Assembly (NCBI GenBank): GCA_018607905.1
Contig: JABBAP010000034.1
Coordinates: 1-34,630 of the forward strand
Length of the DNA: 34,630 nucleotides
Source: Paracoccaceae bacterium
GTDB lineage: Bacteria; Pseudomonadota; Alphaproteobacteria; Rhodobacterales; Rhodobacteraceae
Direction of reading: 5' to 3'
The notes beneath the pieces are model-generated. The model saw only the letters and a list, made by a program, of their open reading frames with translations, was not told the origin of the DNA and ran no database searches. Of the stretch, positions 4,240 through 13,062 are shown one piece after another. Each line of letters opens with the position of its first letter. Position 1 is the first letter of the stretch. Made by a program: the position numbers and the translations under genes.

Positions 4240-4314
4240 GGTCCCTTCGTCTATCGGTTAGGACGCCAGGTTTTCAACCTGGAAAGAGGGGTTCGATTCC
4301 CCTAGGGACTGCCA
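4240..4314 (+). tRNA. tRNA-Glu (anticodon UUC), with encoded CCA
   Basis: All four arms fold. The acceptor pairs GGTCCCT with AGGGACT, the D stem pairs GTCT with GGAC, the anticodon stem pairs CCAGG with CCTGG around a TTTTCAA loop with anticodon TTC, and the T arm pairs AGGGG with CCCCT around TTCGATT. The discriminator is G and CCA is encoded, giving 75 nt. The first acceptor pair is a G-U wobble rather than G-C. It reads GAA and GAG. It lies alone between recJ and a convergent gene. Confidence 0.97.
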
Positions 4315-4372: not shown

Positions 4373-6334
4373 TCAATCCGCTCTGGGCCTGGCTCGTTTT
4401 GCACCAACAGCCTGCAATGCCAACAAATCGTTTTCTACATCCGCAGAATACGCCCGCAAAAATGCGCGCAATCCGTTTTGGATCGACAGGTTTAAATCCG
4501 CTTCGTTCGGCAAATCATGGGGGAAATGCAGCGCATGATTGCGCGGGCCAGACAGAATCAACGACCACAGATTTTCAGCTGCCAAATCAGCGTTTTCAAA
4601 CACCAACGCCTTGTCCGCCCGCTTTTCCCCAAGATACCGCGCGATCCCCGCCAATGCTTGCGCAGGGCCCGTTTCGTGATATTGCCGTGCGATATCGGGC
4701 ACCCGCTCTGCCTCGCCAATCATCAAACGCGCAATCGACAGATTGTCAGGGTGCAACACAAAATCAGAATACGCCCAACTGAAATCCCAAAGAACCCCAA
4801 CCATTTCTTTGCCAACAGCATCATCGAATGGCGCAAGTATAGTCGCCCGCCCCGCATCCAAAACCGCCCGAAACAGCGCGTCTTTCTGGCCGATGTATTG
4901 GTACAACGTCGGCTTTGAAACCTCTGCCCGTTTCGCAATCGCCGTCATCGATGCCCCTGAATATCCGCTCTTGGAAAACTCCCGCAGGGCTGCGTTCAAA
5001 ATCCGCGCCCGCTTTTCGCTGCGCTTCACTTCTTTAGTCGCGGGTTTAACAGGTGGCAAAACCATGCCGAAAAACTGCGCCAAATGTGCATTCACCGCTT
5101 CGGGCTGTTCCAGATTGCAAACATGGCCCGCATCCGCGATCACCTCAAACCCAACAAACGGGGCGCCAGCATCTGCAAAGCGCTGACTTACCGCGCGAAT
5201 TTCTGTTGGTGGCGCCAGCTTGTCATGTTCGCCCGTCATCAAAAGTACAGGAAAATTAGCAGCGCCAAAATTCAGCTTTTCAGGCGGGTTGCAAAAACAG
5301 TTCAACGCATCGCGGTACGTATCTTGCGGGATCGCCGCCATCGAAGCCTGCAGCGCCTGACGTGCCCTAGCCGACGCATTTGGCCCAGCGATTACCGCCA
5401 CAACGGCATCCGCAAAATCCGCAGGCGTTTGCCCTGCATCAAGGGGCACCTCGCGCGAAACGCGGAACGCTTCACGCTCATCAGGATCCGCCTCAGACAT
5501 TCCAGTGCACCCCCCAGCCAGAACCAAACCCGTAATCAAATCAGGGTGACGCAACGCAAAACTGGCCGCGATCCACGACCCGTAACTCAACCCACACAGC
5601 ACGAGTTTTTCCGCCCCAAACTGGCGCATAACCACGAGAATATCTTCAAAATAATCGTCAATCTGGGTTTGCGAAAACCCCAGCGTGCTATCGCCGTACC
5701 CGCGCAGATCAAGCGCGACCATCGGCATCTGATTGCCAAGTGCCGTAAGCTGATCATCCCAATTTTTACGACTTCCCCCAATCCCGTGCAGCAAAATGCA
5801 AATCGTTTTAGCAGTACTAAACCCCTCAGGTGCAACCGTCAGCGCAAGGCGCGGGGTTCCCTCAATCACCGACGGTTCGGTCTTACAAATCAGGGGCATC
5901 GTACGTTTAACCACACGCGCAATTGGCGCATTCAACGCCGCAATGCCTGCATCAAAAACCGCGTTCGTCCCAGCCGCAATCTCGCCCGCGCGGGGCGATG
6001 CGCCGTCCACATCCGCATGCCATGTTATCGTTGATCCTGTCCCGTTCGCCGTGATTTTCAGCCGCGCAGTGTACCTTTGCGCGCCTTCAATTCCATCGAC
6101 CAAAGTATAACTCATCACGCGATCCGAGTGGCTGATATACGTCAGCCGCTCAATCATTACCGCCTCGTCACCCTCTGCCCCGAACCGTCGAACAACCTCG
6201 CCGCGCGGGCTCACCTCGACCTCGCACCACGCCACAAACGGGTGCCAACCAACACCAAAATCAGCAACCGCACACCAAACTTCATCAGGGCTGGCCGCGG
6301 AATTACCAATGCAATGAACGCTTTCGCGGGCCAC
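4373..6334 (-). CDS. SRPBCC - alpha/beta hydrolase - TetR regulator fusion protein
   Basis: The 653-residue product holds three domains in one open frame. Residues about 1-145 look like an SRPBCC (polyketide-cyclase-like) domain that forms a hydrophobic ligand pocket. Residues about 160-425 are an alpha/beta hydrolase: oxyanion motif HGIGG (183-187), nucleophile elbow GLSYG with Ser250, acid Asp371 in GEHDKLAP and His404 in DAGHVCN, so the catalytic triad is complete. Residues about 437-640 are a TetR-type repressor: helix-turn-helix at about 461-485 (ASMTAIAKRAEVSKPTLYQY), then an all-helical ligand and dimer domain. The linker is PPVKPATKEVKRSEKR. Translation starts at GTG 6334, directly abutting the stop of the upstream gene, so it is the third gene of a coupled operon. 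The natural reading is a hydrolase and a ligand-responsive repressor of the same pathway on one chain. Domain calls are firm; substrate and pathway are inferred. Confidence 0.88.
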   Translation of the reverse strand: MARESVHCIGNSAASPDEVWCAVADFGVGWHPFVAWCEVEVSPRGEVVRRFGAEGDEAVMIERLTYISHSDRVMSYTLVDGIEGAQRYTARLKITANGTGSTITWHADVDGASPRAGEIAAGTNAVFDAGIAALNAPIARVVKRTMPLICKTEPSVIEGTPRLALTVAPEGFSTAKTICILLHGIGGSRKNWDDQLTALGNQMPMVALDLRGYGDSTLGFSQTQIDDYFEDILVVMRQFGAEKLVLCGLSYGSWIAASFALRHPDLITGLVLAGGCTGMSEADPDEREAFRVSREVPLDAGQTPADFADAVVAVIAGPNASARARQALQASMAAIPQDTYRDALNCFCNPPEKLNFGAANFPVLLMTGEHDKLAPPTEIRAVSQRFADAGAPFVGFEVIADAGHVCNLEQPEAVNAHLAQFFGMVLPPVKPATKEVKRSEKRARILNAALREFSKSGYSGASMTAIAKRAEVSKPTLYQYIGQKDALFRAVLDAGRATILAPFDDAVGKEMVGVLWDFSWAYSDFVLHPDNLSIARLMIGEAERVPDIARQYHETGPAQALAGIARYLGEKRADKALVFENADLAAENLWSLILSGPRNHALHFPHDLPNEADLNLSIQNGLRAFLRAYSADVENDLLALQAVGAKRARPRAD

Positions 6335-7639
6335 CTATTCGCCAGCCTGCTCAGCCGCGTCTGGGCGCCACATCGAAACACGCGCGCTTGCCGGATCATT
6401 GGGGTCTTCGACAATATCCGCCATATCATACAGCGTCATCACGCTCAGGTAATCTTCCATGATTTCAGTGGTGTAGGGCAACATTAACGCGCCACAACGG
6501 CTATCACGGTACATGCGTTCCAACGGCAGCGATTTCAGCATAGACTGCCCACCACAGGTGCGGATCGCCAGTGCTGTCATCTCTTGCACACCCTCCATTA
6601 CCGCGTATTGCGCCGCGTATAATCGCATAACTTGCGCCTTGCTCGGAAACCCACAGGCCTCGCTGAATGCGGCATGCCAAAGCGTGCGCATTTCCGTTAG
6701 TTTTTGATACATCTTCGCGACACTTGCCCGTTTGGTCGGGTAAATACGGCGGTCAATCGGCGGCAGGCCTTCGACCTCTCCACGCAGATACTTCACGGTG
6801 TAATCATAGGCCCCCTGCGCGATCCCCATGTACGCAGGCGTCAAGGTCGCCATCATGTGCGGCCACTGCGGCAAGGTTCGCACAAACATGCCTTGGGGCA
6901 TCATCATTTCCTCGTTTTTGACGAACACATCCTTCAAAACGAGGTCCTTAGAATGCGTGCCACGCATGCCAATCGGATCCCACTCCCCCACAACCTGTAA
7001 TCCGGGCGTGTCCTTATGGACCGCGAAATTCATCGTGTCCTCATGGCGCGGTTCAACGCCTTCAAAATGCTCGGTGCAAACGATGGAATAGTAATCGCAA
7101 TGCCCTGCCAATGACGCGAATTTTTTGAACCCGTTGATGACATACCCGCCCTCAACTTTCTTGCAATTGGTTTGGATCGGCTTGGCCGTCCAATTGGTTC
7201 CACCCTCGGAAATCGGTTGCGAATAAATCGCGTTATCTTGCACCACATTGCGGAATTGGCGTTCGCGCAACGGCGCAAAGGCCGTCCGATCCGCGTCGGT
7301 CAAATTCGGCAATTCATACATAAACCGCGACCACATCATGGATGAGGTGTGCATGTTAAACGTCAGCGCCGTCGCCCCACAATATTTGCCAATCTCCGCC
7401 CCGATCATTGCATATTGACCGAGCGAAAACCCAAAGCCGCCAAATTCCTTCGGGATCACCAACCGCAGAAAACCATGCTTTGCAAAATCCTCATAATTGG
7501 CCGTCGGAAAGGATGCGTCTTTGTCTACCTGAACCGCGCGTTTCGCGATTTTGGGGCCCAGCTCATTGACCAATTCCATCATGCGCAGAAATTCAGTATC
7601 GATATCCTCGACATTATAATAATCGTGAAAAGAACTCAT
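6335..7639 (-). CDS. Acyl-CoA dehydrogenase-fold flavoprotein, probably not a dehydrogenase
   Basis: The 434-residue product has the three-part acyl-CoA dehydrogenase layout: helical N terminus, central beta domain (SEGGTNW, GYVINGFKKF, GMRGTHSKDLVLKDVFV) and C-terminal helical bundle with RTCGGQSM. The segment that normally holds the catalytic glutamate (IYEGT in classical enzymes) reads ALMLPYTTE here (384-392), so Leu or Pro stands at that place. The alternative helix-G glutamate of isovaleryl-CoA dehydrogenase is not evident in QWPHMMATLTPAYMG either. The fold is also used by group D flavin monooxygenases and nitroalkane oxidase, so a hydroxylase role is possible. It is about 50 residues longer than typical dehydrogenases, with an acidic C-terminal tail. 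Its start overlaps the NicX-like stop by ATGA, with AGGGAG upstream. No flavin reductase gene is nearby. Confidence 0.88.
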   Translation of the reverse strand: MSSFHDYYNVEDIDTEFLRMMELVNELGPKIAKRAVQVDKDASFPTANYEDFAKHGFLRLVIPKEFGGFGFSLGQYAMIGAEIGKYCGATALTFNMHTSSMMWSRFMYELPNLTDADRTAFAPLRERQFRNVVQDNAIYSQPISEGGTNWTAKPIQTNCKKVEGGYVINGFKKFASLAGHCDYYSIVCTEHFEGVEPRHEDTMNFAVHKDTPGLQVVGEWDPIGMRGTHSKDLVLKDVFVKNEEMMMPQGMFVRTLPQWPHMMATLTPAYMGIAQGAYDYTVKYLRGEVEGLPPIDRRIYPTKRASVAKMYQKLTEMRTLWHAAFSEACGFPSKAQVMRLYAAQYAVMEGVQEMTALAIRTCGGQSMLKSLPLERMYRDSRCGALMLPYTTEIMEDYLSVMTLYDMADIVEDPNDPASARVSMWRPDAAEQAGE

Positions 7640-8682
7640 GCTAACTCTCCCTGCAGCTTGCCTTTGATAACAACGGGCACCCCGTCCAGCGTAATGGTGC
7701 AGCCCCGCATCGGCAGATCAAAATGCCCCAACGTGAACCGACCCGCGTATTGATTTGATCCCGTCGACCACAGGAAATTACCCGCCCAAGCGCGGAATTC
7801 TGTGCCCTGCACATCGCCTTTGTCATAGAGCGCAAGGCTCTCCCAACGGGCATGCGGGTTCATCCCCCAACCCACATGGCTAAACCCATAGGCCTTGGGG
7901 TCATCCCACGCGCCGAGGTATTCGCGAAACAACTCCGCATCCAGATTATCACCAATAATATCAGTGATATAATCGTTTTCCACAGTCATTGTAACGCGAT
8001 CACGCAGGTAATCTTTGAACGTCAGGTTCATGTCCCCAACGTCCATCACGACCGTGCCATTCACCGCATTCTCACCTGGAAAACACAGGCACAAACCACC
8101 GGGCCAGTGATCCACCGCACCGGGGCGTGTGGAAAATCCAGGCGTCCCACCACACGGCGCATCTTTGATATTAATCGTCAAATCCGTGCCTGCATCCGAC
8201 GTGATCCGCATTTCAGATGCGGCCTTCAACATCTCAATCCCAAGCGCAACTTTGGGGCCAAGTTCCGCCCGTGGTTCAGTGCGTTCCAAAATTTCGGGGT
8301 GCTCGTTACAGATCACCAATAACCGCGTTCCCGCTTGCTCAATCTCGGCCATTTCCTCGGCGTGGATCATGCCCTCAACCGTCACATCAACAATGACATC
8401 CACATGTTTCAGCGCCTCGATCACATGGCGAATGCCCTGCACAGCATCGCTTGTTCCCGTGGATTTCACAGGCACAGGCGCGGTTTGCGGCGCGCTTGGC
8501 AGGGTAATCGTCGAATACACCGCACCCAGATCATACAGCGCAAGCGCTGCCAGTTGCCCCAGAACAGGGCGTGATTGGGTTTCTGCCACAATCGCCACTT
8601 GCGTGCCTTTGCCAATGCCATTCAACGCGAAAACACGTTTGAACGAAGCGACCCATTTGGGTTCTGGAATTTCTTGCATCAT
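7636..8682 (-). CDS. NicX-like 2,5-dihydroxypyridine 5,6-dioxygenase family protein
   Basis: The family shares the fold of M29 aminopeptidases. Its characterised member NicX opens the ring of 2,5-dihydroxypyridine with Fe(II) and O2 to give N-formylmaleamate in nicotinate degradation. The 348-residue product matches NicX length and several blocks recalled from it: DHWPGG, GTVVMDVGDMNLTFKDYLRDR, YGFSHVGWGMNPHARW and GNFLWSTG. The iron ligands described for Pseudomonas NicX (two His and one Asp) appear as His269, His320 and Asp322, the last two in LGHFDLP. The first ATG of an ATG-ATG pair is used, eight bases after AAAAGG. It is the first gene of the operon and lies just downstream of a palindromic operator. 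The substrate need not be 2,5-dihydroxypyridine, because the upstream pathway genes of the nicotinate route are absent. Confidence 0.82.
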   Translation of the reverse strand: MMQEIPEPKWVASFKRVFALNGIGKGTQVAIVAETQSRPVLGQLAALALYDLGAVYSTITLPSAPQTAPVPVKSTGTSDAVQGIRHVIEALKHVDVIVDVTVEGMIHAEEMAEIEQAGTRLLVICNEHPEILERTEPRAELGPKVALGIEMLKAASEMRITSDAGTDLTINIKDAPCGGTPGFSTRPGAVDHWPGGLCLCFPGENAVNGTVVMDVGDMNLTFKDYLRDRVTMTVENDYITDIIGDNLDAELFREYLGAWDDPKAYGFSHVGWGMNPHARWESLALYDKGDVQGTEFRAWAGNFLWSTGSNQYAGRFTLGHFDLPMRGCTITLDGVPVVIKGKLQGELA

Positions 8683-8700: not shown

Positions 8701-8725
8701 ATTTTACTATACGGTTTAGTAAAAT
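8701..8725. promoter_or_regulatory. Probable TetR-family operator of the NicX-like operon
   Basis: A perfect inverted repeat has arms ATTTTACTA (8701-8709) and TAGTAAAAT (8717-8725) around a 7-bp spacer. Size and symmetry are typical of TetR-family operators. It lies 19 bases upstream of the NicX-like start codon and covers the predicted -10 element, so a bound repressor would block transcription. The operon's last gene encodes a TetR domain, which suggests autoregulation. The divergent gamma-glutamyltransferase starts 125 bp away and could also be affected. Confidence 0.7.
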
Positions 8726-8850: not shown

Positions 8851-10587
8851 ATGTCAGTCCTCACCCGCATATTCGCCGTCCTCGCCGTCACGCTTTCCCC
8901 CGTTTCAGCCCAAGACCTAACGCCAGCAGCAACCGTCGCGCTTGATGCGCGTAACTCTGGCAAACCGACCACGGCGCAAAAATGGATGATCAGCACGGCC
9001 AATCCAATCGCCGCGCAAATCGGCGCGGATATCTTGCGCCAAGGCGGAACCGCCGCCGATGCGATGGTCGCGGTTCAAGCCACGCTCGGCCTACTCGAGC
9101 CACAATCCTCTGGCCTTGGTGGCGGTGCATTTTTGGTCTGGTATGACGGTGCAACTGGCAAAGTCACCACGTTAGATGGCCGCGAAACCGCGCCCCTCGC
9201 CGCAACACCGACCCTATTCCAAGACGAAAACGGCGAGCCGCTAAAATTTTTTGATGCCGTCGTTGGCGGGCGTTCTGTTGGCACCCCCGGCACGCCGATG
9301 TTAATGGCGCAGGCCCATAAAAAATGGGGTAATCAACCTTGGCCTGATCTTTTAGCCCCCGCAAAATCCCTCGCCGCTGACGGATTTACCGTTTCCCCGC
9401 GCATGGCAGAAAGCGTAAGCGCCGACCTTGAGCGTCTGTCTCGTTTTCCCGCAACCGCCGCTTATTTCCTGCCAAAAGGAACGGCGATTAAATCGGGAGA
9501 CACGCTGAAAAACCAACCCTACGCCGAAACCCTTTCTGCCCTGCAATCAGGTGGTCCAACAGCATTTTACACAGGCAAAATCGCCCAAAATATCGTCGCA
9601 ACCGTTCACACAGCCGCGGGCAATCCCGGTGTCCTTTCCCTCGTTGATCTTGCGATTTACAAGGTCAAAACCCGCGCACCCGTTTGCGTAAATTACCGCG
9701 GATTTGATGTGTGTGGCATGGGCCCGCCCTCCTCTGGCGCACTTACTGTCGGGCAAATCCTTAAACTCATCGAACCCTTCGACATCGCCGCACTCGGCCC
9801 AGAAAACCCAGAAACGTGGCGCATCATCGGCGATGCCTCCCGCCTCGCCTTTGCGGATCGCGGCCGCTACATGGCCGACAGCGATTTTGTCCCTGTCCCC
9901 ACGAAAGGCCTTATTGATCCCAAATACCTCGCCACCCGCAGCGCGCTGTTGCGAACCGACAAAGCCTTGGAAAAACCAACGGCAGGTGACCCGAGTTTCG
10001 ATCATTCCTTCAATTGGGCCGACGACGAATCCATCGAACTCCCCTCGACCAGTCATTTCTCCATCGTCGACAGCTACGGCAACGCCCTTTCCATGACCAC
10101 CACCGTGGAAAACCGGTTCGGATCACGCCTGATGTCTGGCGGATTTATCCTCAACAACGAAATGACCGATTTCTCTTTTCGCACCAACACGGATGGCAAA
10201 CCCATCGCCAACGCGCTCGCGCCCGGCAAACGCCCGCGCTCTTCGATGTCACCGACAATTGTGCTGAAAGACGACAAACCCGTCCTCGTCATCGGCTCCC
10301 CCGGTGGCAGCCGCATCATCGGTTTCACCGCGCAAACCATCATCGCGCATCTCGATTGGGGCATGGATATCCAAGCCGCCATCGACATGCCGCGCATGGT
10401 AAACCGCTGGGGCAAATACGAGCTGGAAGCCACGGGAACGACCGAAAAATTCCAAGCCCCACTCGAGTCGATGGGCTATAAAGTTGAAATCAAACCCATC
10501 AATTCAGGCCTGCACGGCATCGCCATTGGCGACACGTTAACAGGGGGCGCAGACCCGCGGCGCGAAGGCATCGCCATCGGGGAATAA
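8851..10587 (+). CDS. ggt: Gamma-glutamyltransferase, periplasmic
   Basis: The enzyme cleaves or transfers the gamma-glutamyl group of glutathione and related peptides in the periplasm, releasing amino acids for uptake. The 578-residue product begins with a clear signal peptide (cleavage likely after PVSA, residue 20). It is made as a precursor that cuts itself into two subunits before the catalytic threonine, seen here as Thr400 in PSTSHFSIVD, equivalent to Thr391 of the E. coli enzyme. The gamma-glutamyl-binding arginine is present in LDGRETAP (Arg111), as are GSPGGSRI and the ALAPGKRPRSSMSPT block. The start at 8851 is chosen because it gives the signal peptide and follows AAAGG; the frame stays open upstream into non-homologous sequence. 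The next gene is convergent and only 4 bp away. Confidence 0.94.
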   Translation: MSVLTRIFAVLAVTLSPVSAQDLTPAATVALDARNSGKPTTAQKWMISTANPIAAQIGADILRQGGTAADAMVAVQATLGLLEPQSSGLGGGAFLVWYDGATGKVTTLDGRETAPLAATPTLFQDENGEPLKFFDAVVGGRSVGTPGTPMLMAQAHKKWGNQPWPDLLAPAKSLAADGFTVSPRMAESVSADLERLSRFPATAAYFLPKGTAIKSGDTLKNQPYAETLSALQSGGPTAFYTGKIAQNIVATVHTAAGNPGVLSLVDLAIYKVKTRAPVCVNYRGFDVCGMGPPSSGALTVGQILKLIEPFDIAALGPENPETWRIIGDASRLAFADRGRYMADSDFVPVPTKGLIDPKYLATRSALLRTDKALEKPTAGDPSFDHSFNWADDESIELPSTSHFSIVDSYGNALSMTTTVENRFGSRLMSGGFILNNEMTDFSFRTNTDGKPIANALAPGKRPRSSMSPTIVLKDDKPVLVIGSPGGSRIIGFTAQTIIAHLDWGMDIQAAIDMPRMVNRWGKYELEATGTTEKFQAPLESMGYKVEIKPINSGLHGIAIGDTLTGGADPRREGIAIGE

Positions 10588-10591
10588 CACC

Positions 10592-11749
10592 TTATTCCTC
10601 CAAATGCCCCGCCACACGGCTCAACATTTCAAGACACGCGCTAAGTTGTTCGCGGCTGACAAACTCATCAGGTTTATGGGCCTGTTCAATCGAACCTGGC
10701 CCGCAAATCACCGCACTTACGCCCGCTTTTTGGAAAATTCCCGCCTCGGTTCCAAACGAAACCACATCCGTTTCATTCCCCCCTGTCAGGTGTCGCACAA
10801 CCCGTGTCGCTTCGCTGTCAGGATCAGGTTCTAGGCCGTCAACTTCGCTGGTAAATGTTTCCTCTATCCCAACCAGCGGCGATTTTGCCTGCATTTCTGG
10901 CAGCAAAACATCGCTGGCAAAACGGGCAATTTCACCGCGCACATATTCCAGATCAGACGCCTGCACAGGGCGCATTTCCCAGCCAACAGAGGCCTTATTC
11001 GGGATCACATTATGCGCAACACCCGCTTCTAACATACACACCTGCAGCGTCGTGTGGGGCGGATCAAACCGCGATCCTGCGGGCGCACGCGCAGGTAAAT
11101 CCTGTCGCAACCGCATCAGCTCACCAACATACCGCGTCGCATATTCCAGCGCATTTACACCCAGATCGGGCAGCGACGAATGCCCCTCAACCCCCGTAAA
11201 TTCCACCGTGTATTCGCAGCAGCCTTTGTGCCCCTCGATGATGCGCATCGACGTCGGCTCACCGATAATCGCCGCACTTGGCCGCAACCCTGCTTTCACC
11301 ATTTCATCCACCAAAACACGCGCCCCAAGGCAGCCTGTTTCTTCGTCATAAGTGAACGCAAAATGCACAGGACGTTTCAGCTCGGCCGCCGCAAACTCAG
11401 GCGCCAAAGCCAAACACGCAGCGATAAATCCCTTCATGTCGCAGGTGCCACGCCCATACAGCAAACCATCGTCTTGGCGCAAAATAAACGGATCACTCGT
11501 CCAGTCTTGCCCCGCCACGGGAACCACATCCAAATGCCCAGACAGGATCAACCCGCCGTCCACATCTGGCCCGATGGTCGCAAAAATATTGGCCTTTCCA
11601 ACCGTGTCCGATGTCACCTGACACCGCGCGCCCAAGCCCTCCAGATACGCAACAATCCAATCGACACAGGCCTGATTGCTGTCCGTAGAAATTGTTGGAA
11701 ACGCGATCAGCGTCTCCAAAATCTCAATCGTTTTTTCCAAGCGCCCCAT
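10592..11749 (-). CDS. ArgE/M20-family N-acyl-amino-acid deacetylase
   Basis: This is a cytosolic zinc hydrolase closest to acetylornithine deacetylase, which removes the acetyl group from N2-acetylornithine. The 385-residue product keeps the M20 metal and catalytic motifs: LSGHLDVVPV (His and Asp), YGRGTCDMKGF (bridging Asp), YDEETGCLGA (catalytic Glu pair), GEPTSM and, near the end, a His in EQAHKPDE. The dimerisation insert begins around VEFTGVEGHSS. Its start overlaps the stop of the creatinase-fold gene by one base (TGATG), so the two are translationally coupled and probably act in one pathway. That neighbour resembles ectoine hydrolase, whose product N-acetyl-2,4-diaminobutyrate is a one-carbon-shorter analogue of N-acetylornithine. 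A role on that compound is therefore plausible but not shown. An arginine-metabolism role is the alternative. Confidence 0.88.
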   Translation of the reverse strand: MGRLEKTIEILETLIAFPTISTDSNQACVDWIVAYLEGLGARCQVTSDTVGKANIFATIGPDVDGGLILSGHLDVVPVAGQDWTSDPFILRQDDGLLYGRGTCDMKGFIAACLALAPEFAAAELKRPVHFAFTYDEETGCLGARVLVDEMVKAGLRPSAAIIGEPTSMRIIEGHKGCCEYTVEFTGVEGHSSLPDLGVNALEYATRYVGELMRLRQDLPARAPAGSRFDPPHTTLQVCMLEAGVAHNVIPNKASVGWEMRPVQASDLEYVRGEIARFASDVLLPEMQAKSPLVGIEETFTSEVDGLEPDPDSEATRVVRHLTGGNETDVVSFGTEAGIFQKAGVSAVICGPGSIEQAHKPDEFVSREQLSACLEMLSRVAGHLEE

Positions 11750-12942
11750 CAGTTTTTCACAAACAATTTGCGATCAACATTTGCCAGTGGTTCGGCAGAT
11801 CCACCCGCACGAATGCGCAGGGTTTCTGTAATTTCCAAACCCCAATCGGGCATCCACAAGGCGGGCATAAAATGGAATGTCATGTTTTCCTCAAATACTG
11901 TTTCATCTGATGGGCGTATCGAAAACGTCCGCTCGCCCCAATCGGGTGGATAGCTCATGCCGATGGGGTAGCCGCACCGACCCTCGCGCTGCACCCCATG
12001 CTTTTCCAAAACGCCGTAAAACGCCCGCGCCACATCGCCCGCCGTATTTCCGACGCGCGCGGCATCAATGCCTGCGTCGATACCTTCCAGCACAACCTCC
12101 TCGGCCACGCGAATATCCTTTGGCGGATCGCCCAACCAAATGGTGCGACACAGCGGAACATGGTATCGCCGATGCACGCCCGCAATTTCGAAAAACGTGC
12201 CAGAATTATCGGGTACAGGCTTATCATTCCACGTCAAATGCGCCGCTGCGGCTTCATCCCCTGTGGGCAATAGCGGCGTCAGCGCGGGATAATCCCCACC
12301 AAACTGCACGCCGTCTTCCTCTGCACCCCAAATCGCCGTGTGCCAAATTTCTGCCGCCACTTCGTTCTTGCGTTTGCCAGGTTCAAACACTTCGTAAATC
12401 CGCTCGTGCATCCGCTCCACAATCCGCGCACCGCGCCGCATGTACACCAATTCCTGATCCGATTTCACCGCACGACACCAGTTCACCAACGCCGTCACAT
12501 CTGTTGGCGTTTGCCCCACTTCCGCGCTCAAAACTGCATGGGCCTTGGCCGTGTAATAATAATTCTCCATCTCCACGCCGAGCCGCAGATTGGCCCACCC
12601 ACGATCCTTCAACTCGCCGCCCAAATGCTGCATCGCGTGGCGCTCTGTGGACATCACATAATCATCGGAATACCCTACAATATCAGACGCATCCATGTAA
12701 CACGTCTTGGTCGCGCCAACCGCATCCATCGCTCGCCCCCAAAACACAGGGTCGCCAGATGGCCCAATAATTACGCCCTGATGCACGTAAAACGACCAGC
12801 CGTCATACCCCGTCAACCACGCCATGTTGCTCGGGTCACAGGTGAATAAAACCTCCACCCCAGCCGTATCCATTTTCGCGCGAACCGCGGTCAATCGCGC
12901 GGCAAATTCATCGCGACTGAAATTCAATTCTACATCTGGCAT
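11749..12942 (-). CDS. Creatinase-fold (M24) hydrolase, ectoine hydrolase DoeA/EutD-like
   Basis: DoeA/EutD opens the ring of ectoine to N-acetyl-2,4-diaminobutyrate, the first step in using ectoine as carbon and nitrogen source. The 397-residue product has the two-domain M24 layout. It matches recalled DoeA blocks, notably [34 protein letters not shown]-like [26 protein letters not shown] and [11 protein letters not shown]. The aspartate metal ligands of M24 peptidases are missing: [18 protein letters not shown] stands where an aminopeptidase has the D-L-G and D-I-T-R motifs. This argues for a creatinase or ectoine-hydrolase type reaction rather than a metallopeptidase. ATG 12942 is preferred over GTG 12960 because AGGGAGAG lies just upstream of it. 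No DoeB, ectoine aminotransferase or AsnC regulator is nearby, so the exact substrate is open. Confidence 0.82.
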
Positions 12943-13062
12943 ATCAACTCTCCCTGTCACGAAAATGCTAATCGGATTCGCGTCAAACGCAAAACCAATT
13001 CGTTACCCTTTGCGCCGCCCGCCCCCCGTGCTACGCCCGTATCCAACACAAGGGAGACGCAA

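Follow-up and report, generated by a model that had tools for sequence, protein, structure and literature searches.

Three adjoining genes on a 34,630-nucleotide stretch of DNA from a Paracoccaceae bacterium (contig JABBAP010000034.1, hereafter the window) appear to be the core genes of a catabolic operon that is conserved among relatives and acts on an amine-bearing aromatic compound or an N-heterocycle other than 2,5-dihydroxypyridine; we put the probability of this reading at roughly two in three. The window is an entire contig (C15) of a 3.17 Mb draft genome. The genes encode a ring-cleavage dioxygenase (P0001), a flavoprotein with the acyl-CoA dehydrogenase (ACAD) fold (P0002) and a protein in which a hydrolase is fused to a TetR-type regulator (P0003). 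The open reading frames of P0001 and P0002 share an ATGA overlap, those of P0002 and P0003 abut, and none has internal stops, which confirms the three overlapping or abutting genes described in an earlier note made from the letters of the DNA alone (the sequence-only reading). The operon type is apparently a recurring, unstudied breakdown pathway, and in a search of the open-licence literature no paper describing these genes as a set came up.

Relatives were collected from a sample of 394 genomes of the family, including that of the window, and from a wider scan with one genome per species. In the family sample 48 genomes contained some dioxygenase match, 24 of them at 69% identity or more; the wider scan gave 329 related stretches, of which the best 80 were taken. 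Dioxygenases with at least 69% identity are referred to as tier 1. They comprised 108 sequences, one per locus, and after removal of 17 duplicates 91 loci, mostly from Rhodobacteraceae and Rhizobiaceae. Tier 2 consisted of ten places at 42–50% identity, nine of which entered the alignment (at L061 no gene was called), and tier 3 of seven sequences drawn from places near 36% identity, five of them in nic-type gene orders. Outside annotated records the genes were called with a codon-score caller, and absences may be missed calls. In the fetched flanks of the 91 non-redundant tier-1 loci, to which the locus counts below refer, we found the flavoprotein gene at 88, the hydrolase gene at 86 and the TetR gene at 81, and this co-location with the dioxygenase is more than chance. 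The coordinates of the features are given in Table 1.

Table 1. Features of the operon and its upstream region
Feature	Position	Strand	Remarks
NicX-type non-haem Fe(II) ring-cleavage dioxygenase P0001	7636..8682	-	348 aa; sequence match, profile, alignment, tree
ACAD-fold flavoprotein P0002, probable flavin-dependent monooxygenase	6335..7639	-	434 aa; Pfam, fold and sequence search
SRPBCC, alpha/beta hydrolase and TetR (AefR-type) fusion P0003	4373..6334	-	653 aa, GTG start; Pfam
SRPBCC (Polyketide_cyc2) domain of P0003, residues 13-135	5930..6298	-	Pfam
Alpha/beta-hydrolase domain of P0003, residues 180-409; triad S250, D371, H404	5108..5797	-	Pfam, alignment
TetR_N and TetR_C_7 region of P0003, residues 445-630	4445..5002	-	Pfam
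Operator-like perfect palindrome ATTTTACTAAACCGTATAGTAAAAT, 9-bp arms, 7-bp spacer	8701..8725		shortly upstream of dioxygenase start

The NicX-type dioxygenase

When P0001 was compared with all solved chains using phmmer, NicX (7cn3) was the sole match (E 2.8e-58), and a profile built from 23 orthologues found NicX in the PDB at E 4.3e-69. Besides NicX, this profile gave just three chance-level rows at E ≤ 10 (E ≥ 0.63) and no M29 aminopeptidase, and no Pfam family matched P0001 at 1e-3. Judged by sequence, no solved protein other than NicX is a credible match. The possibility of an M29 aminopeptidase, which the sequence-only reading had raised, was rejected on these searches; M29 sequences were not included in the tree described below.

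The iron ligands His265, Ser302, His318 and Asp320 of NicX correspond to H269, S306, H320 and D322 of P0001. Together with His105, His189 and Arg293 (NicX numbering) they were retained in 108/108 tier-1 sequences, so the earlier description of a NicX-like dioxygenase with its iron ligands was borne out. Three other positions are substituted in P0001, with T180 at NicX Glu177, G178 at Val175 and Y312 at Glu308. It was found that Glu177 is Thr and Val175 is Gly in all 108 tier-1 sequences, and that Glu308 is replaced by Tyr in 107 and by Phe in one. At position 177 the nine tier-2 sequences have Val (8) or Ile (1) and the seven tier-3 sequences Glu (5) or Gln (2); position 105 in tier 3 is Phe or Trp. 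According to the accessible part of PMC7910607, from which the residue roles are taken, Glu177 and His189 are substrate contacts, Glu177 through hydrogen bonds to N1 and O1 of dihydroxypyridine, the substrate reported for NicX is 2,5-dihydroxypyridine alone, and the H105F variant retains function, so that the presence of His105 is not diagnostic. Since Glu177 is replaced by Thr throughout tier 1, 2,5-dihydroxypyridine dioxygenase activity is unlikely, and the substrate of the tier-1 enzyme probably differs from that compound, as had been supposed in the sequence-only reading.

That reading had also proposed a phylogeny against true NicX as a check. In an unrooted tree of 114 sequences, a nic group of 14 including NicX formed a split with a support of 0.999, tier 2 (9 sequences) one with 0.985 and tier 1 (91 sequences) one with 1.0. 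Tier 1 is thus a clade apart from the NicX group.

The flavoprotein, the fusion protein and the predicted operator

Pfam clearly recognised ACAD domains in P0002, and all 17 curated families listed scored far under their cut-offs. The closest solved relatives by sequence and fold were 5gj7 and 5z8t (about 27% identity or less); 5z8t, the entry title of which names a flavin-containing monooxygenase, was the top Foldseek match of the AlphaFold model (pLDDT 80), and a literature search on these two structures brought up no paper. The next matches were KijD3 and other nitrososynthases, mixed among plain dehydrogenases. The alignment with KijD3 extended to residue 403 and those with two dehydrogenases ended at residue 385, but alignments with other dehydrogenases reached 396–404, which makes alignment length a weak argument for the lack of a dehydrogenase-type catalytic segment. 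A gene for a RutF/HpaC-like flavin reductase was present at 54/91 loci and one for a second flavin reductase at 23/91; in the window genome the nearest flavin reductase, at 54% identity, is encoded on contig C40, not beside the operon. From the family scores below cut-off, the fold match to 5z8t and the reductases near the operons of relatives, it is likely, though not proven, that P0002 is a monooxygenase, which supports the possible hydroxylase of the sequence-only reading. On the same grounds an acyl-CoA dehydrogenase proper was judged unlikely.

P0003 contains both the hydrolase and the TetR domains, in agreement with the hydrolase joined to a regulator that had been noted before; its SRPBCC domain and the upstream palindrome are features beyond that note. 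In the alignment of the hydrolase, which took gene calls of 381–719 aa only, the catalytic triad and the HGIGG loop were invariant in 84 rows, 83 of them distinct. The elbow GLSYG was also confirmed, and the NicD-like gene of locus L069 has GHSMG (the names NicD and NicF for neighbour genes are our own labels, from the gene order in L069). A NicD identity for the P0003 hydrolase was rejected, as the match to the NicD-like protein covers just 73 aa at 30% identity. Most relatives encode TetR separately, in the gene that follows. A fusion like that of the window was present at 22 loci, all inside one 27-leaf part of the midpoint-rooted tree (support 0.54).

We searched the 150 bp upstream of the dioxygenase for the pattern TTWACT-N-AGTWAA, allowing one mismatch and spacers of 2–11. 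The pattern was present at 70 of the 89 tier-1 loci having at least 100 bp upstream, compared with 13/1376 upstream of other genes in these loci and with 2.0% of shuffled and 1.3% of random control windows (1780 each); because it was drafted after inspection of the same loci, the controls show enrichment and are not an independent test. The distance between the half-sites falls into two classes, spacer 4 or spacer 9, which largely track whether TetR is separate or fused. The spacer was 9 in all 14 fusion loci with the palindrome (21 fusion loci were examined), whereas among unfused-hydrolase loci it was 4 in 47 and 9 in 8. Seven fusion loci gave no match; at four of them tctC precedes the dioxygenase, and on inspection of the tctC upstream regions the palindrome was seen there instead. 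Control of the operon by TetR is the best inference from the enrichment and from the spacer that follows the fusion, and the fusion protein probably represses its own operon via this predicted operator. The TetR part would do so by binding the palindrome, and its attachment to a hydrolase and an SRPBCC pocket may link repression to the binding of substrate or product.

Neighbouring genes and candidate substrates

The data support an oxygenolytic pathway, in which an amine is probably involved. P0002, supplied with reduced flavin by a separate reductase, would hydroxylate the substrate, and the NicX-type Fe(II) dioxygenase would then cut the ring bond next to the new hydroxyl; with a ring nitrogen at the cleavage position the product would be an N-formyl compound. 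The SRPBCC-hydrolase would hydrolyse the cleavage product and could deformylate such a compound. A glutamine-synthetase-like (GS-like) ligase, or some other amine module, would take the amine, while the rest of the carbon skeleton may be passed to a lower pathway of the gentisate, 2-aminobenzoyl-CoA or homoprotocatechuate type.

The GS-like ligase, reductase and transporters of relatives lie outside the window and were beyond the reach of the sequence-only reading. Neighbours at the 91 loci include a GS-like ligase, GSa (62), an APC permease (38), gentisate-dioxygenase-like (27), FAH (27), nitrilase-like (16) and TctC (13) genes, another GS, GSb (7), P450 (7), MgsA-like (6) and HpaH-like (5) genes and a salicylyl-CoA-5-hydroxylase/oxidoreductase-type fusion (3). 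NicD-like and NicF-like genes, searched for with the L069 queries at thresholds of 40% identity and 60% query coverage, were found at 0/91 loci, so the absence of nicF noted earlier is supported and extends to the NicD homologue. By name, no NicC or NicE was present in two annotated relatives; no search for NicC, NicE or nicAB was made.

Co-occurrence was also examined at the genome level, with thresholds chosen after seeing the matches and with statistics that ignore relatedness among genomes. GSa has a Gln-synt_C domain, and its scores against glutamate-methylamine ligase are lower than those against other glutamine synthetases; at E ≤ 1e-90 it was found in 16 of the 394 family genomes, all within the 24 tier-1 genomes (p 6e-23, though expected from adjacency). 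At six of the 91 loci there are genes with GATase, GXGXG and glutamate-synthase domains, which we call MgsABC-like. This set never occurred together with GSa at a locus. L196 and L197 have another set of this kind, taken for the usual methylamine one, with which it shares only 34–53% identity. An MgsA-like gene was present in four of the eight tier-1 genomes without GSa (window genome included) and in 12/386 others; G213 is a tier-1 genome holding both. The gentisate gene was found in 9/24 tier-1 genomes versus 19/370 others, and the salicylyl-CoA-type fusion in 18/24 versus 125/370 (p 9e-5), with 82% identity in the window genome.

The closest relatives, at 91% identity, are L036, L083 and L082, the last with less than 2 kb upstream. 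In L036 and L083 a gene of the NCBIfam type 'bifunctional salicylyl-CoA 5-hydroxylase/oxidoreductase' lies divergently upstream, accompanied in L083 by benzoate-CoA-ligase-type (just under cut-off), ACAD and RidA-type genes; an SDR and a hydratase beside the fusion were recognised by eye. Fusions of this type serve also as 2-aminobenzoyl-CoA monooxygenase/reductase. The gentisate-type neighbour is a close homologue of the solved gentisate 1,2-dioxygenase 3bu7. In L088, HpaD, HpaE, HpaH and HpaI-like genes and a PLP-decarboxylase-like gene (under all cut-offs) stand beside the operon. Taken together, the gentisate, salicylyl-/2-aminobenzoyl-CoA, homoprotocatechuate and amine-handling neighbours suggest an amine-bearing aromatic compound or a benzo-fused N-heterocycle. 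The N-heterocycle put forward in the sequence-only reading is not established as the substrate: the residue contacting the ring N-H is lost, and the neighbours are partly of the benzenoid lower-pathway and amine-handling kinds.

Several observations weigh against the proposed operon function. No reductase, ligase or transporter adjoins the window operon, and 17/91 loci, the window included, have no amine module in the fetched flank; eight of these 17 fall among the 68 loci whose flanks reach 5 kb or more on either side of the operon. Lower-pathway genes stand near just 32/91 loci and vary between them, which may reflect loose clustering. The flavoprotein was not detected at three of the 91 loci (L085, L112 and L154, the last being truncated where its contig ends), and in L085, from Leucothrix pacifica, neither flavoprotein nor hydrolase was detected alongside a tier-1 dioxygenase of 81% identity. 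The AlphaFold model of P0001 has a pLDDT of 60 and does not resolve the active site. As to regulation, the palindrome is missing or weaker at 19/89 loci, and the eight unfused loci with spacer 9, as well as the origin of the pattern in the loci it was counted in, count on the same side.

Among narrower and competing readings, an indole-type substrate would be a special case of the operon function proposed here. Hydroxylation would be followed by C2–C3 opening to an N-formylanthranilate-type product, the hydrolase would free formate, and anthranilate or 5-hydroxyanthranilate would go to gentisate-type cleavage or to 2-aminobenzoyl-CoA. We regard this as unlikely, although it accounts for the salicylyl-CoA-type fusion upstream in two of the three closest relatives and enriched in tier-1 genomes, and for the gentisate-dioxygenase-like genes at loci and in genomes. 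The indole oxygenase IifC is ACAD-like. The accessible part of a 2018 review, PMC6221969, covers indole degradation via N-formylanthranilate, gentisate and 2-aminobenzoyl-CoA, states that IifC acts together with a flavin reductase, and calls the enzyme from anthranilate to gentisate unreported; if the indole reading is true, the link to anthranilate-type and gentisate genes bears on that step. However, homoprotocatechuate-type genes and Mgs-like neighbours speak against it, the fusion gene is close to the dioxygenase at only 3/91 loci, is common anyway (143/394 genomes) and may act on salicylate instead, and no match to gentisate dioxygenase was found in the window genome. In a wider form, equally speculative, this NicX-type subfamily would open a benzo-fused or N-substituted N-heterocycle such as hydroxyindole, with the product hydrolase fused to the repressor. 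Hydroxyindole cleavage would then supply the missing genes of an oxygenolytic route from indole through anthranilate to gentisate or 2-aminobenzoyl-CoA, and an enzyme that meets the metabolite would also switch the operon. A benzenoid substrate of the hydroquinone, aminophenol or gentisate type, derived for instance from aromatic amines, with no heterocycle involved, is doubtful to a similar degree. It would suit the Hpa-type and PLP-decarboxylase-like genes in L088, the gentisate genes, the GS-like ligase with GATase, as in aniline clusters, and the loss of the residue that reads the ring nitrogen, but the loci with such lower-pathway genes already hold ring-cleavage enzymes for those acids, and we know of no NicX-family enzyme acting on a benzenoid substrate.

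Somewhat less probable again is an N-substituted pyridine of the homarine or trigonelline type, for which the loss of Glu177, the N1 contact in NicX, together with Val175 to Gly, would leave space for an N-methyl group. Methylamine would be set free by cleavage and deformylation, and either the ligase or an N-methylglutamate-synthase-like enzyme would capture it; this agrees with the distribution of the MgsABC-like genes and of GSa, and with a role of methylglutamate dehydrogenase in homarine catabolism, as cited in the accessible part of PMC13390433. Against it stand the low identity of the Mgs-like set to that of L196 and L197 and its position beside microcompartment genes, the benzenoid lower-pathway neighbours and the scores of GSa. 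No homarine genes were found in the accessible parts of PMC9723723 and PMC12817926; the novelty of our operon falls if the homarine operon of a 2026 Nature Microbiology paper, cited in PMC13390433, is this cluster or the tier-2 one. True NicX in a nicotinate-like pathway, with 2,5-dihydroxypyridine as the ring-cleavage substrate, is very improbable: the homology, the iron site, His105 and His189 are in common with NicX, but Thr at position 177, where tier 3 keeps Glu or Gln, the separate clade and the gene content led us to reject it.

Some arrangements were noted alongside. In L162:7930-15015, on the Ruegeria pomeroyi megaplasmid, the gentisate-dioxygenase-like cupin gene adjoins genes for a nitrilase, FAH, an arylmalonate-decarboxylase/racemase-type protein and TctBAC, near indolepyruvate oxidoreductase genes. 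In L185:356-10520 the MgsABC-like genes and a GATase stand beside a GS-like gene, EutN/BMC shell proteins and an aldehyde dehydrogenase (domains tested), and L186 and L189-L191 seem to be arranged likewise, judged by gene sizes; this set is possibly an unstudied amine-handling microcompartment. The tier-2 loci L058-L067 combine the dioxygenase with an alpha/beta hydrolase; most also have an ACAD-fold flavoprotein together with an AMP-dependent ligase, some have TRAP or ABC transporters, and L060 has an aspartate-dehydrogenase-like gene as well. Tier 2 is a second uncharacterised NicX-type cluster.

In the window the operon is flanked by a gamma-glutamyltransferase gene on the opposite strand (8851-10587) and by tRNA-Glu (4240-4314). 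The former was rejected as a pathway member, being present beside the operon in the window only (1/91 loci). An acetylornithine-deacetylase-type M20 protein (10592-11749) adjoins an ectoine-hydrolase-like M24 protein (11749-12960) that falls just under the DoeA cut-off (567.6 vs 613). Between 16508 and 25843 there are TRAP-transporter-like, choline-dehydrogenase-type GMC oxidoreductase, IclR-like, zinc alcohol-dehydrogenase-like and HisD-type dehydrogenase genes, with only the GMC and HisD types confirmed; the stretch presumably resembles sulfonate (DHPS) catabolism genes.

Comparison with known systems

P0001 shares with NicX homology over residues 12-342, the two-His/Ser/Asp iron site and the residues His105, His189 and Arg293, whereas tier 1 differs from it in the replacement of Glu177, Val175 and Glu308 and in forming its own clade. 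NicX and Hpo are treated as a separate subclass of non-haem iron dioxygenases in the accessible part of PMC7910607, and a clade with the NicX iron site but a replaced recognition residue would widen the chemistry of these enzymes. The overall logic of hydroxylase, ring-cleaving dioxygenase and hydrolase is that of the nic lower pathway (NicX-NicD-NicF), but the hydrolase of P0003 is joined to an SRPBCC domain and is no orthologue of NicD, and no NicD- or NicF-like gene lies near the operon. In addition, annotated nic-type plasmid clusters use an FAD-dependent monooxygenase, in contrast to the ACAD-fold flavoprotein of the window operon.

P0002 itself matches the ACAD-fold flavin monooxygenases (5z8t/5gj7 and the nitrososynthases KijD3, DnmZ and ORF36) by fold and sequence, at no more than about 27% identity. 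Aniline-type clusters carry a GS-like ligase and a GATase; in our relatives, too, a GS-like ligase, with a GATase in few loci, stands next to the aromatic oxygenase, whereas no ligase lies beside the window operon. With AefR-type TetR repressors P0003 has in common TetR_N and TetR_C_7 and an operator-like palindrome upstream of the operon. It differs in that TetR is joined to an enzyme and an SRPBCC domain in one polypeptide, and this within a single part of the tree; an enzyme-repressor fusion with a palindrome spacing that largely follows its architecture would be a compact case for studying enzyme-regulator coupling.

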